IMG/VR virus record: IMGVR_UViG_3300044699_000165
Coordinates: 1 to 36,059 of that record
DNA length: 36,059 nucleotides
Source of the DNA: a virus
Direction: 5' to 3' (one strand)
The translations under genes and the position numbers were made by a program. Position 1 is the stretch's first letter; each line of letters starts with the position of its first letter. Below the pieces are notes generated by a model. That model saw nothing but the letters and a program-made list of their open reading frames with translations, was not told the origin of the DNA and made no database searches. This document shows, piece by piece, positions 1 to 11,779 of the stretch.

Positions 1-935
1 CTCAACCCGCCCGCGGTCCCTGCGAGTGGCCGGGCCACCGAGAGCGCCCCGGTGGTCGTGCTCGATCCGGCGGTGAGGCCAGAAAGGCCCCCAGCCGCGG
101 TGGCCAACAAGTTCGCCGTCGTGGTGGAGACTCCATCCGCGCTCCCCACCAGTGCTCGGGCGACGGTGAGCGAGGTACCTCCCGCCGTGCTGATGCCACT
201 GGCGCTGCCCACCAACGTCCGAGCAACGGGTGAGCACCCCCGTCGTCGTGCTCAGGCCGGCCGCTGAACCAGCCACAGGGACGGCGCGGGCCACCGCCCC
301 CGTGACCGTTGACGCTCCCGTCGCAGAGCCAACGAGGGCCCTGGCGACGGCCAGCGTTCCCGTTGCTGTGCTGACCCCGTCAGTGATGCCGCCGGGGAGC
401 CCAGCGGTGATCAAGGAGGACGATGCGGTGCTGGTGCCGCCAGCAGTGCCGGCCAACGGGACCGCACGTGCCAGCGCGCCGGTGGTGGTGCTCAGACCGC
501 CCGCAGTGCCCGTCAGCGTCCGCTGAACGACGAGTGCACGGTCGCGGTGCTCAGACCATCGGACTGCCCGGCCAGGCCCCCTGGCGACGCTCAGGGCACC
601 GGTGGTGGTCGACAGGCCGGCGGCTGAGCCATCCAAAGTCTTGGCCGACGAGCCCGCCAGGTCACCGGTCGTCGTGCTCAGCCCGGTGGCCGTCCCCGCC
701 AACGCACGTGCGACGATCATTACCCCGCTATCAGTGGAGACACCGGTTGCGGTGCCCGCGAGTGCACGAGCCACAGCCAACGCCCCGGTGGTGGTACTCG
801 TCCCGTTGGCGTTGGTGCTGGCGAGCGCCCTGGCAACCGCGATCGCACCGGTCGTGGTGCTGGCCAGTCCCGAGATGGTGCCGGTCAGCCCACGAGCCAC
901 GCTGAGGGCGCCGGTGGTGGTCGACCCCCAGCAGC
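1..935 (-). repeat. Tandem 60-63 bp repeats coding a 20-21 residue unit
   Basis: About fourteen degenerate copies, with clear phase points near 913, 850, 787, 664, 600 and 476. On the minus strand they translate as units like TTTGALAVARALAGTATGVS. The array follows the glycosidase domain directly (SIAVTSTAAG, then STTTGALSVARGL) and so belongs to the fibre gene. Such Thr/Gly/Ala units are usual in phage fibre stalks, and a trimeric beta-structured stalk is an inference. The array reaches the window edge, so copy number is a minimum and could be mis-assembled. Confidence 0.75.
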
Positions 936-3605
936 GGTGCTCGTGACCGCGATCGACAGGTTGGTCGGGCGCTCGGGGTAGGTGGCGTAGATCGTGCCCG
1001 CCGCAGTGAGGGCGCCCGACGCCACGAGCCCGGTGTTCGGCCATCCAGCGTTGGTGTCGTTGAGGACGAACCAGGCGATGCGCTCGACCCACGGGCGTGC
1101 GTTGCAGATGTCCATGACGTCATCGACCATCGCTGCGTTGGCGCTGGCGCCACCGCCCAGGGTGCCGATCTCGGTGAGCCAGACCGGACGGGCGTAGGTC
1201 GTGTGGATGTAGTCGAGGAAGGCGGCGAGGCTGCTGTAGCCGGAGTCGTACTCGGGGTACCAGTGCACGCACATGAAGTCGACTCGCGGTGCCGCACCAC
1301 CGTTTGCCCGACATGAAGCTGGAGAGCCACCCCAGCGGGTTGTTGGCGAGGCCACCGCCTGGCGCTGGTGACCCCAACCGGGCACCGGTGGCCTCCAACT
1401 GCGGCCACAACGCCAACGCCCCGAGCAACGGTCATGTCGGCCTGGGCGGGCACGTCGGGCTCGTTGAAGCCGAGCAGGATGTCGGATGGACCGATCGACT
1501 CCGCCGGGGGTGCCACCGACATCGAACCCTGCGTAGGTCCGATCCCAGTCGCCCCACATCTGCGGCACGTACTCGATGCCCGGGGTAGAGGGAACCGGTC
1601 CAATTCCAGTCACCGACTGGCTAGCCCAGTCGTAGTACCACGACACGTTCACCAGGGTCAGGTCCGACGCCATCGCGGCCTCACGGATGGCGCCAACGCC
1701 CTTCCACAACGTCGAGGGTGTCGTTGGCGTCAACGCCGTGAGCGAGAGGTTGTCGTACTGGACCCCGACCAGGCCGGTCCCGGCGCCGCTGTAGAGGCCG
1801 AAGGCGAACGTGGCCTCGGTGAAGGTGCTGTCGTTGGCGCTGATCTGCCACGTGCCGGGCTCGGTGCCGCTCCACCACTTCACCTTGTGGTTGTTGCCGA
1901 CGACAAGGATGCGGACGTTCAGGTCGGACGTGACGTTGATCCCGGCCGAGCTAACACTGGCGAAGGAGACGCCTGACCCCCCGGCATCGATGGTCTGCAA
2001 GTTGACCGTGTTTGTCGGCGATGTCGAAGTCGACGCCGTAGCAGTTCGCCGGGAACCCGCCCGAGAGGCGCGCCCGAGCGGTAGTACGTCTCGATGTAGT
2101 GCTCGCTTGTAGCCAGGGCGTTGTAGAGGAAGGTCACATCGAGATCGGGACTGTGCGTGCTTCCGGCGAGTTGCGCCAAGGCCATGGTGTAGCCACACCC
2201 GCAGCCGCTGTCAGTTGCCTCGGTTGCCCTGGATGGTGTTGGTGATAGGTGCCGCCGGTCGGCTTGGTGATCGTCCACGGTGGAGCAGGCCAGGGAGCGT
2301 TGTCTGCGCCGGTCCACGTCTCGGTGATGACGTTGGAAGCGGCGCCACCCGACTCCAGGACACGAGGCAGACGCGTCCTCCTCGTTGCGTGCCGCTGCGG
2401 ATTCGAGGTAGCGCGTCATGGCGTGTACGGGAGCGGCCCGCACCGGAAGTTGTCGAAGATCGGACCCTCGGTGCAGTTTCATCCCGGCGTAGTTGCCAGT
2501 GGATGATCGAGCTATCGGTGGCCGAGGCGACGAGCACGTCGTTGGCGTACAGGCGGATCGCTGTGCCCTGCGTTTCCAGCGCTGCTTCACGCTGGAGACA
2601 CCGGCAGCCGACGTGCCGGAGACGACGTCGGCGTAGCTGCCGCCGACACTCTTGCCGATCTTGTAGAACCCGGCCGGATCCCAGAAGCCGAGGTAGCCGG
2701 TGCCGTTGTCGTTGCCCTGGGGGCGACGACAGTTGATCACGCCGAAGGAACCGGCCGGAGCGACCCTGGACCTCGACCCACATGTCAGGCGTGCCGACGT
2801 TGGCCGGGCGGAACGTGACGTAGTCCACCACCGCCGCTGCGGCGAGCGGCGTTGGACGAGATGTAGTACCCGCCATCGGGGCCCCACTTCGGCCCGAGCC
2901 CGGCGCCACCTCCTCCGACGCCGGTGGAGTCAGCACGGTTGAAGTCGTCGCTGAAGATGCTGGACGCGCCACGTACGGGAAGACGCCGCACCGGAAGTCA
3001 TCGATGTACTGGGGCCAGTTGTCAGCCGAGATGCCGGTGTAGTGGCCCGTCGTGATGGTGCTGTCGGTGGTCGACAGCACGAGCGCATCGGCGGCGTACA
3101 GACGCAGCGCGGTGCCCTGGACCTCCAGTCGCACCCGCCCCGTGAAGTTGGGGTGGGTGTTGTTGGCCTCGGTAACGATCTCCGTGGTGGGCGCCGTTGG
3201 ACGCCATGCGCCCGATCACGAACCGTCCATCGAAACCCCGGTATGCCCCGAAGTAGTGGATGTTGGCGTGCCGGTGAGCACCGTGCGCCGGGCCAGCAGA
3301 GCGAGGAACCCGTAGCACTGCAAGAAGTTCCCCTCGACCCAGTGGTCGTCGGCGCCGAGGTCGGTCAGGAAGATGGAGAAGTCGTTGGGCATCCCTGTCG
3401 GGTGGTAGGCGGCGAAGCGGTCGATGTTCCAGTTCGCCTCCGACGACCACCCAGCACCCAGCGCCCCCACACCGGTGGCGTTAGCCCGATCGAAAGTGTC
3501 GCTGTAGGTGGTGCCGCCGCCAGCGGCGACACCCTCCACCGCTCGATAGCCACCGCTCTCCAGGAGATAGCCACCTATGCCCTCCAGCATGCGTGCGTCG
3601 CTCAT
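1..3605 (-). CDS. Large tail fibre/depolymerase with GH128-like domain (partial)
   Basis: Probable receptor-binding or surface-polysaccharide-degrading tail protein. It starts at the ATG at 3605 (MSDARMLEG), overlapping the upstream stop as ATGA, and runs off the left edge. Order of parts: two concanavalin/LamG-like modules opening FDRANATGVG and FNRADSTGVG, each with a QGTA(L/I)RLYA strand; a third sandwich-like module with KVKWWSGTEPGTWQ and GVQYDNLSLTAL; a glycosidase domain (about 1700-970) with LLGFNEPDVP, VDFMCVHWYPEYDSGY and PVWLTEIGTLG; then short tandem repeats. GFNEP and WLTE fit the acid/base and nucleophile glutamates of the Glyco_hydro_cc/GH128 fold, whose characterised members cut beta-1,3-glucan. 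The substrate here is unknown. The gene is split over at least eight frame changes, so I merged frames by continuity of domains; sequence error is the likely cause. Confidence 0.75.
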
Positions 3606-7529: not shown

Positions 7530-9096
7530 TCAGCCCTTCACGTACGCGTAGATGGCGAGGTACGCCGGGGTGAACGGGACGGCGGCACCGCCGCCCACGG
7601 TGTCCTCGGAGACGCTGTGGGGGTGGGCCGGGATGGGGTCGATCGTCGCCTGGTGGTCGTGGTCGCCCTGGTCGTCCATGCCGTGGCCGTGCTCGGAGCC
7701 GGCCGAACTCACCGTGATGCCGGTGAGGGCCGGCCGAGTCCACTCGGCCATCTCGACCGACCACGTGTGGCTGCGGTCGTTGAAGTAGGCGTCGATCTTG
7801 TTCCGACCGCCGTAGGCGGCGCAGATGAAGCCGCCACCGAGGATGTGGTCGGCCCCGTAGTGGGCGTGCCCGGGGTCATCGAGGTTGTGCCCGTGGGCCC
7901 CGCCGAAGACGTTGTGGCGGTGGATGCCGTTGCGCGAGATGCGGACCTGCGGCTGGGCGCCACCACCTTGCTGCACGACGGTGTTGTGCTTGTGCAGCGG
8001 CATGTTGGGGATGCCGATGGTGAAGCTGTTCGCGCCACCGAGCCGGCCGGCGTCGTCGGGGCTGTAGAGCAGCACCCGGCGGCGGGCGTCAGGCAGCGCC
8101 ATCGTGCGCGGACCCGAGGGCGGCGTGTTGATGTAGATCGACAGCGCTGGGATGTCGAACAGCGACAGGGCCTCGACCTCGGTGACGACCGAGCCATCGA
8201 GTGCGATCCAGCCCAGCGGCGTCATGTAGCTCGGCGCCTGGAGGCTGGTGATCACGGTGCCGGTGGGCACTGACGACCTGAGGGTGGCGATCTCCTCCCA
8301 GTGCCCGCCTTGGTGCACGTACACCTTGCCGCTGCTGGTGTGGGTGAAGAGATCGCCCGTGGCCCCGGAGGCGTCGCTGGGGAGCGCTGAGGCGTTGCGG
8401 AGGTTGGAGCCGGTGACCTTCTCCGTGGCGTAGATGTTCTTCGCCGAGCCGATGGCACCACCGGCGTAGATCGTGTTGGTGACCTGGAGGTCCGGCGTGA
8501 TCTGCAACGCACCGGCGGGGCCGAAGTCGACCCCGCTCGATCGAGACGTCGGCCTCCCACGTGGTCTTGCCTGCACCATCGACCCGGAAGAGATTCCCTG
8601 AACCATTCCGGTTCACCACAAGGTCGGCGTCGGGCGAGAGCTTCGTCTTCAACGAGTCGGCAAGCATGTTGCGCTTGTCGATGACGTTGTCGCTGTAGTC
8701 GGAGCCACCGACCGCGGCGAACACCGAGGCGAGCACGGTGACGTTGAGCGGTGGGTCGGGGAACACCGGATCGAGCGATGGCGACCCGGCGACGGTCACG
8801 AGCTTGCCGGTGCTGTCGACGCCGACGAGGTCGAAGCGCGACTGGGTGCCGCCGGCACCGACGTCGGTGTTCTGGCCCGCCACGACGTCCACAAGGACGC
8901 CGTTGACGAGTGCGGTGCCGGCGGTGTTCGACGCCGTCGTGCCGCTGACCGTCACCAGGCAGCCGCTCAGCACCCCCCAGCGAGCGTTGCCGGAGATGTT
9001 GAAGTCGATCCGATCTGGCTCAGCCAGTTCAGGCTTGGTGACGTCCTGGGCGTTGGGGACGAAGAACCCCTGGTGCAAGACCGTGGGGCGCGCCAT
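7530..9096 (-). CDS. Tail fibre with tail-collar domain and HxH array
   Basis: Starts ATG 9096 (MARPTVLHQGFFVPNAQD) with GAGGAG upstream; about 521 residues. The N-terminal half is a virion-binding fibre region (NVIDKRNMLADSLKTKL). After one frame change near 8540 the C-terminal half contains GWIALDGS, the signature of the phage tail-collar domain, then PDARRRVLLY and NSFTIGIPNMPLH. It then has seven His-x-His motifs: HKH, HRH, HGH, HAH, HGH, HDH and HPH. In T4 short and long tail fibres such motifs bind a metal ion inside the needle, and by analogy this fibre probably binds several ions. It ends AYLAIYAYVKG, the usual collar-fibre terminus. A role in host binding is well supported by family. 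Confidence 0.75.
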
Positions 9097-10402: not shown

Positions 10403-11761
10403 TCAGTTGGTGACGATCTTCACGACGGAGGACTCGGTGATGACGCCCCAGCCCCAGATCGAGTACCACGCCAGAGCGTGCTCACGACCGAAGTCGAGCA
10501 CGCCGCCGTCGCGGAGTTCGACCGGCAGGCTGATGGCCTGACCGAACGCGTTGTCACCGAGCATGATGGCCTCGTAGGCCGACGTGCTCGGGCCCCACGG
10601 CGCACCCCAACCGGGCACCGCGACGTCGTCAGCGTCGTAGGCGAGGCCAGCGGCCCCACCGTCCGATGCCGAGTTGTACGGCGGCACGTCGGCGTGCCGG
10701 CGACCGGCTGGAGGATGTCGGGGAACGTGGCGTCGCCACCGGCGGCACCGAGCGACGTGCCGCGCCAGTCCGGGTTGTTCGGGTTGGGCGTGGTGACGGC
10801 ACCACCCGGCAACTGGAGGTACGGGTCGGTGGTGTCGGTGCCCACCGGGGTCCCGATCTGCGTCGTCTCGATGAACACGACATCGTCCAGACGCCCGATC
10901 TCACCGAGCATGAAGTTGCCCGGGGCGGCGTACTTGGTGACCTCGATCCACTCCGGGCGTGTCACGCAGCTTGCGGCTCTGGTGCGGGTGCACGAAGCAC
11001 ACGTACGTCTCACCGAGGCGGGGCACGTTCTTGGTGGCGAGCACCTCGACGGCGTCCTTGATGGAGTACGGGTGGAGGATGTACCACGACGCCGGGGTGG
11101 CTGCGGCGCCGGTCACGGCCGACACGTTGGCAGCGACGGTGCCGGGCTCGTAGATGCCGTAGCCGACGTTGATGGCCGAGGGCTTCTGGTAGCCGAACAC
11201 GACGCTCGACGCACGCTGGAGGGTGGCACGTGCCTGCCCGTCCATGTACAGCGCCATGTTGCGCCCGAGGAGCCGCGAGGCCGAGGCCATCACGTCATCG
11301 AACGAGGCGTTGAGGAGCAGTTCCGACACCGCAACGGCGAAGCCCTGCTCGGCAACCGTGATCGCGTACTGGTTGGCTGAGATGGCGTGGGTCTTCATGC
11401 GAACGCCCTCAGCCAGAGGGCCCGCCGGGATCGGCAGGTTGTTGTAGCGCATGAAGTTGACAGTCAGGCCGGGCATCGTTCCCAGTTCGGTCTTCTTGAC
11501 CGCGAACTGCTCGAAGCGGAGAACCGGCATCGACTGGAACAGGATCTCCTTCGACCAGATCGTCTGGATCGCGGGGCCCATCATGGTCGAGCCAGTGGTC
11601 ACCCCCGTTCCGTAGCCGACCGCTGTGTTGTCCATCGTGGCGAACGCGTTGTAGCCACCAGGGACGTCGTACTGGCTGAGGGGGCCACCCGTGGACAGGC
11701 GCGTCGTACCAGTGATCCCGGAGATCACCGGCAGTTCGCCACCCAGGCTCTGACCGGGCAT
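10403..11761 (-). CDS. Major capsid protein, N4-gp56 family
   Basis: Builds the icosahedral shell. ATG 11761 (MPGQSLGGELPVI) follows a strong AAGGAG site. Length is about 452 residues, normal for the family. Recognised by the order of blocks: IWSKEILFQSMPVLRFEQFA, NNLPIPAGPLAEGV, QYAITVAEQGFAVAVSELL, then YVCFVHPHQSRKLR and, in the next frame, WIEVTKYAAPGNFMLGEIGR with DDVVFIET, a hallmark of N4-gp56 capsids. The C-terminus is VLDFGREHALAWYSIWGWGV. Frame changes occur near 10965 and 10690. The total length stays a multiple of three, so the errors balance out. It lies directly downstream of the scaffold gene, the classic order. Confidence 0.9.
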
Positions 11762-11779
11762 GTTGTTAACTCCTTGGGG

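Follow-up and report, generated by a model that had tools for sequence, protein, structure and literature searches.

The window analyzed here is the whole IMG/VR virus record IMGVR_UViG_3300044699_000165, a stretch of 36,059 bases with a GC content of 66%. Close to its left end, between the capsid and the tail genes, the minus strand carries a fiber gene with a GH128 (PF11790, Glyco_hydro_cc) domain. The features of the locus and of related viral contigs are listed in Table 1. The ATG of the fiber gene shares 4 bases with the TGA of the upstream fiber gene, and the same 4-base overlap is present in two relatives of the window, L004 and G020. The anchor motif MTRYLESAAARNEED that follows the start has counterparts in G020 (MTRYLESGAARNEEDG) and in a third relative, G038 (MTRYLESAANRNEEDG), and takes the altered form MSSRNLESASGRYFES in L004. 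Between anchor and GH128 domain, a jelly-roll-like module was recognized by eye in the window and in G020; in L004 and G038 the anchor joins the GH128 domain directly, without this module. The intact jelly-roll-like region of G020 matched no Pfam family and no PDB sequence.

The original prediction had flanked the GH128 domain with lectin-like modules and a repeat stalk. One such module indeed lies in the same gene, and the rest are part of the upstream gene starting at 3605. A gene model with several lectin modules inside the GH128 gene was also considered and dropped, as the starts at 3605 and 2419 place most of them upstream. The repeat stalk was borne out: it comes after the domain and extends past the left end of the contig. 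In L004 and G020 the stalk repeats likewise have a period of 20 residues and terminate in a conserved C terminus, WNGQxxDAMQYG.

Table 1 Features of the GH128 fiber locus in the window and stand-alone GH128 genes on other viral contigs.
Feature	Position	Strand, frame	Basis or remark
GH128 (PF11790, Glyco_hydro_cc) catalytic domain	about 966..1724	(-), three frames	Profile search and tblastn with relatives
GFNEPDVP, acid/base glutamate (= AmGH128_I E102 position)	1448..1471	(-), frame 1	Alignment
PVWLTEIGTLG, nucleophile glutamate (= AmGH128_I E199 position)	1155..1187	(-), frame 0	Alignment
VDFMCVHWYPEYD, conserved active-site HxY	1245..1283	(-), frame 0	Motif comparison
Fiber gene start and N-terminal anchor motif MTRYLESAAARNEED	2375..2419	(-)	ATG at 2419
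Jelly-roll/concanavalin-like module, no known family	1737..2350	(-), frame-broken	About residues 55-265 of the G020 fiber, by eye
Stalk of ~20-residue repeats (STTTGALxVARALAGxxxG)	1..930	(-)	tblastn with the L004 fiber; frame break near 228
Upstream fiber gene (MSDARMLEGIGGYLLESGGYRAVEG...)	2418..3605	(-)	Two lectin-like modules by eye; ORFs
Collar-type tail fiber gene, bounding the variable slot on the left	7536..9096	(-)	PHROG tail fiber/collar; tblastn
Major capsid protein gene	10406..11764	(-)	63% identity to L004; frame interrupted by one stop, due to indels
Stand-alone GH128 without fiber parts	L163:1850-2620
Stand-alone GH128 without fiber parts	L166:11811-12590
Stand-alone GH128 without fiber parts	L167:1788-2588
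Stand-alone GH128 without fiber parts	L171:4154-4795
Stand-alone GH128 without fiber parts	L169:1122-1808
Stand-alone GH128 without fiber parts	L170:763-1449

Searching the unmended window DNA with the PF11790 profile gave three matches (1649-1548, 1489-1421 and 1292-987; best E 1.1e-17), a single piece scoring 58.6 bits at a curated cut-off of 21 bits. Stitched end to end, the frame pieces reached 129.8 bits (E 1.6e-37) and covered 219 of the 237 profile columns (19-237). The intact relatives L004 and G020 score 147.9 and 142.2 bits, respectively. The match in the window is beyond chance, and membership of the fiber domain in GH128/PF11790, as originally proposed, is nearly certain. Likewise, the three motifs named in that proposal, GFNEPDVP, VDFMCVHWYPEYD and PVWLTEIGTLG, all occur on the minus strand, distributed over two frames. 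In the alignment, NEPD and WLTE of the window correspond to NEPN and W(I/L)TE in L004 and G020. A domain does lie at the proposed location of 960-1720; its extent is closer to 1724-966, and the catalytic gene starts at 2419. The stitched window domain had no match in PHROGs, and the intact L004 and G020 fibers matched neither a PHROG nor an NCBIfam model.

The GH128 domain of the window runs from frame 0 to frame 1, to frame 2 and back to frame 0. The portal and collar genes on the same contig change frame as well, and the capsid frame contains a stop. In L004 (735 aa) and G020 (1063 aa) the domain is encoded in an open frame; the G038 copy is open too and comprises the first half only, ended by the contig end. 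Since capsid, portal and collar are also broken and the domain is intact in relatives, the frame breaks in the fiber gene are most likely sequencing or assembly indels. Several frame changes inside one gene could also reflect a decayed pseudogene, which we regard as highly improbable because the same kind of breakage affects portal, capsid and collar and because the window sequence between the breaks still resembles the intact relatives. Across window positions 1-36059, the uncorrected indels in several genes (capsid, portal, collar) render gene counts from this assembly unreliable.

By sequence, the nearest solved structures are GH128 enzymes, with AmGH128_I in first place (E 9.6e-29). The residues exchanged in the AmGH128_I mutants E102A and E199A, both of which were matched PDB entries, align to the glutamates of the NEP and WLTE motifs, in agreement with the two catalytic glutamates originally predicted. 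For structure prediction, the GH128 domain of the relative L004 was modeled instead of the broken window copy. Folding from a single sequence gave a poor model, whereas AlphaFold2 supplied with a 29-row alignment including bacterial GH128 rows returned a pTM of 0.83 and a mean pLDDT of 77. In a VIA-align comparison of this model with the PDB, the top 21 entries were all GH128 structures (Z 20.7-24.7), followed by other barrels at 18.4; AmGH128_I (6uaq) was matched with Z 24.7 and 36% identity over 223 residues. The L004 domain is thus predicted to form a (beta/alpha) barrel like the solved GH128 structures, and this confident model, made on an intact copy, adds to the support for the originally proposed GH128 membership. 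In the model, one catalytic glutamate follows strand 86-91 and the other lies within or after strand 185-191, positions compatible with a pair that faces across the cleft.

In the GH128 enzyme CBM6E, glucose is contacted by an N-E pair, a Q six residues past the first Glu, an HxY motif and the second Glu, and the active site also has an aromatic residue (Phe) at -1 (PMC10956234). As judged by motif mapping rather than superposition, these active-site residues have counterparts in the viral copies, with L004 carrying Tyr in place of the -1 Phe. Both glutamates and the neighboring active-site residues are retained in each of the three viral copies long enough to include them. An extra loop follows the WGDW sequence in L004 and G038. 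Subgroup I was closest in the PDB searches, and in trees the viral clade is separate with weakly supported neighbors.

A search with the major capsid protein of the window recovered 259 viral relatives; 80 of them were retained, and the contigs reach 118 kb. The nearest deposited phages are the Streptomyces phages GiJojo, BRock, pSt2308, LuckySocke and Alone3. Their capsid proteins are 64-67% identical to that of the window across about 70% of the length, and the identity of the terminases is 43-45%. GiJojo encodes sheath, tube and baseplate, which indicates a contractile tail. The window phage thus appears to be related to contractile Streptomyces phages, with capsid and terminase similarity as the basis of the Streptomyces link.

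In L004 and G020, the GH128 fiber gene sits between a collar-type fiber gene and tail genes, the region that holds the tailspike in GiJojo; this genome position agrees with the tail-fiber setting claimed at the outset. The GH128 gene is outside the GiJojo tailspike family and has only the region in common with it. In two relatives, G004 and L009, the slot is empty and 27 bases separate the flanking motifs; in the others with both flanks found, it spans about 4.5-9.8 kb. As the flanks adjoin in the relatives with an empty slot, the whole cassette, several kb long, seems to come and go in one piece. The empty slot is seen at L107:3070-3097 and L009:11981-12008, two close relatives in which the flanking genes are a few bases apart. 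According to Pfam, slot fibers of relatives carry LamG, collagen-like, fn3, apiosidase-like, esterase (BD-FAE) and endosialidase-chaperone domains, and the slot of GiJojo holds a pectate-lyase-like tailspike with a K1-lyase C-terminal domain. Apiosidase-like and BD-FAE esterase domains and collagen-like stretches are found among the slot proteins of L106-L124, L076 and L081. PF11790 was present in 4 of the 81 lineage records searched (the window, G001/L004, G020 and G038), a lower bound, as many of these records are fragments.

The four viral fiber domains form one clade with a support of 100/100 in two trees, on a long stem of about 1.1-1.3 changes per site. A single, fully supported clade on such a stem means that the domain was not copied recently from a host gene. 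Searching at the DNA level for the NEP motif retrieved 14 more viral contigs, 10 of them with PF11790 scores over 144 bits. On several of these contigs, GH128 is encoded as a short stand-alone protein; such proteins form a separate clade (96/91) and are found near tail, amidase-like or terminase-like genes (neighbors read by eye, not by profile search). By eye, the copy in L171 adjoins an amidase-like gene and that in L166 comes after tail genes. The stand-alone proteins are possibly lysis or tail enzymes. With the fiber clade apart from the stand-alone clade, GH128 seems to have been acquired by phages at least twice. A further GH128 gene, at L165:11789-12544 on a viral contig of 57% GC, has a signal-peptide-like N terminus (MRRAIAALVLWVSAALPAFG) and lies upstream of a capsid-like gene.

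Among deposited phages, the window had no DNA match, and a tblastn search of 50,697 phage records gave no hit to the window domain, to AmGH128_I or to two stand-alone GH128 proteins of phages. When viral sequences were scanned with the window domain alone, no relative was recovered, and an alignment including two solved GH128 sequences recovered L004; the 29-row GH128 alignment was too diverse to serve as a query. A scan of genome contigs returned only distant cellular GH128 proteins (Bacillota and others) and hence no prophage or host link. The literature search found no paper linking GH128 and phage tails. The GH128 family, the concept of a phage-borne glucanase and the occurrence of PF11790 among putative endolysins of uncultured phages (Fernandez-Ruiz 2018, PMC5968864) were already known; a GH128 tail fiber was not met in the deposited phages, PHROGs or literature searched. 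The view that GH128 is known mainly from fungi and bacteria is qualified by those uncultured phages and by the other phage contigs described above. It is also qualified by the best viral structural match, a glycosyl hydrolase of the giant algal virus Tetraselmis virus 1 (BFVD A0A2P0VP73; TM 0.72, 22% identity).

These observations make it fairly probable that the protein is a tail fiber that both depolymerizes a beta-1,3-glucan-like polymer and binds it as receptor. Enzyme activity, substrate, location in the virion, roles of the flanking modules and host are what we infer in the following scheme. The protein would be a fiber (or spike) on a contractile-tailed phage, tied to the tail by the short N-terminal anchor. 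The jelly-roll-like module may bind sugar, and the GH128 barrel would bind and cut beta-1,3-glucan or a close polymer by a retaining mechanism, with the NEP glutamate as acid/base and the WLTE glutamate as nucleophile. The long C-terminal stalk of 20-residue repeats could act as a spacer. By binding and cutting the host polymer, the phage would come nearer to the cell envelope. This suggests a glucan-like coat on the host that is recognized and trimmed by the phage, and a glucan-like surface polymer is a reasonable candidate for the target.

How closely the substrate resembles plain beta-1,3-glucan is where the most serious alternative arises. The domain may be an active GH128 depolymerase for a polymer of other linkage, such as a host-specific exopolysaccharide or a teichoic-acid glycan, a reading that we consider possible, if less probable than a beta-1,3-glucan-like target. 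The long stem of the viral clade, the loop inserted after WGDW in L004 and G038 and a lineage-specific slot that houses several different enzymes all speak for it, and with distant viral copies, two of which have the extra loop, specificity may well differ from that of characterized GH128 enzymes. However, the residues that contact glucose in CBM6E have viral counterparts by motif (PMC10956234). A barrel that merely binds beta-glucan as an adhesin has a precedent within the family, as GH128 subgroup VII (6ubd, 6ubc) is described as comprising oligosaccharide-binding proteins. We nevertheless judge this improbable, given that the three viral copies reaching that far keep both glutamates and their active-site neighbors and that the nearest structures are active subgroup I endoglucanases.

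The target may also lie outside the host. Beta-1,3-glucan, the known substrate of GH128, is common in fungal walls, and a fiber acting on environmental glucan (fungal hyphae or plant callose) might keep the phage near its bacterial hosts or help it to reach them. This seems unlikely to us, since host recognition fits better with the other fibers in the slot of the relatives and with the capsule-lyase-like tailspike of GiJojo. A role in lysis or wall entry, with cleavage of peptidoglycan or a wall glycan, would be in line with the putative endolysins of uncultured phages carrying PF11790, as catalogued in PMC5968864. It would also be in line with the amidase-like neighbor, read by eye, of the stand-alone gene in L171. 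Against this, the domain is part of a fiber of 735-1063 aa with a repeat stalk, encoded in a fiber cassette and not in a lysis cassette, and to our knowledge no GH128 enzyme cuts peptidoglycan. We therefore regard this role as very unlikely.

Phage depolymerases reveal which sugars bacteria display. From a GH128 fiber in relatives of Streptomyces phages, one would predict that the surface of the host bears a beta-1,3-glucan-like polymer, and the enzyme could serve to detect it. More tentatively, an actinophage lineage may possess an old GH128 receptor-binding depolymerase clade of its own, and its actinobacterial hosts, possibly Streptomyces-like, may bear an undescribed receptor of the beta-1,3-glucan type. 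A glucan of this type has a precedent among actinobacteria, as Cellulomonas flavigena makes curdlan (PMC10819609). Moreover, the slot illustrates the exchange of whole fiber cassettes, with different enzyme folds, within one phage lineage.

Among known systems, AmGH128_I from Amycolatopsis mediterranei, a subgroup I endo-beta-1,3-glucanase (6uaq), shares family, fold, both glutamates, the HxY motif and the Q with the viral domain. However, it is a cellular enzyme that lacks both the phage anchor and the stalk, whereas the viral clade stands on its own long branch and L004 and G038 carry the extra loop. The PF11790 proteins of PMC5968864 also come from phages, but they are catalogued there as endolysins and not as a tail-fiber domain. 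The tailspike gp76 of GiJojo occupies the same slot in a related contractile phage and is a presumed polysaccharide depolymerase; it is built from a pectate-lyase-like beta helix and a K1-lyase C-terminal domain, without GH128. The principle has a precedent in Erwinia amylovora phage S6: cellulose was experimentally shown to be the first receptor, and its glucanase gp095 (GH5) is encoded in a polymorphic region (PMC9544554). As far as can be inferred, the window fiber is like gp095 in being a phage beta-glucanase matched to a glucan exopolysaccharide. It differs in that gp095 is a GH5 enzyme for beta-1,4-glucan in a member of the Schitoviridae with a Gram-negative host, and in that activity and receptor are demonstrated for S6 and predicted for the window fiber.
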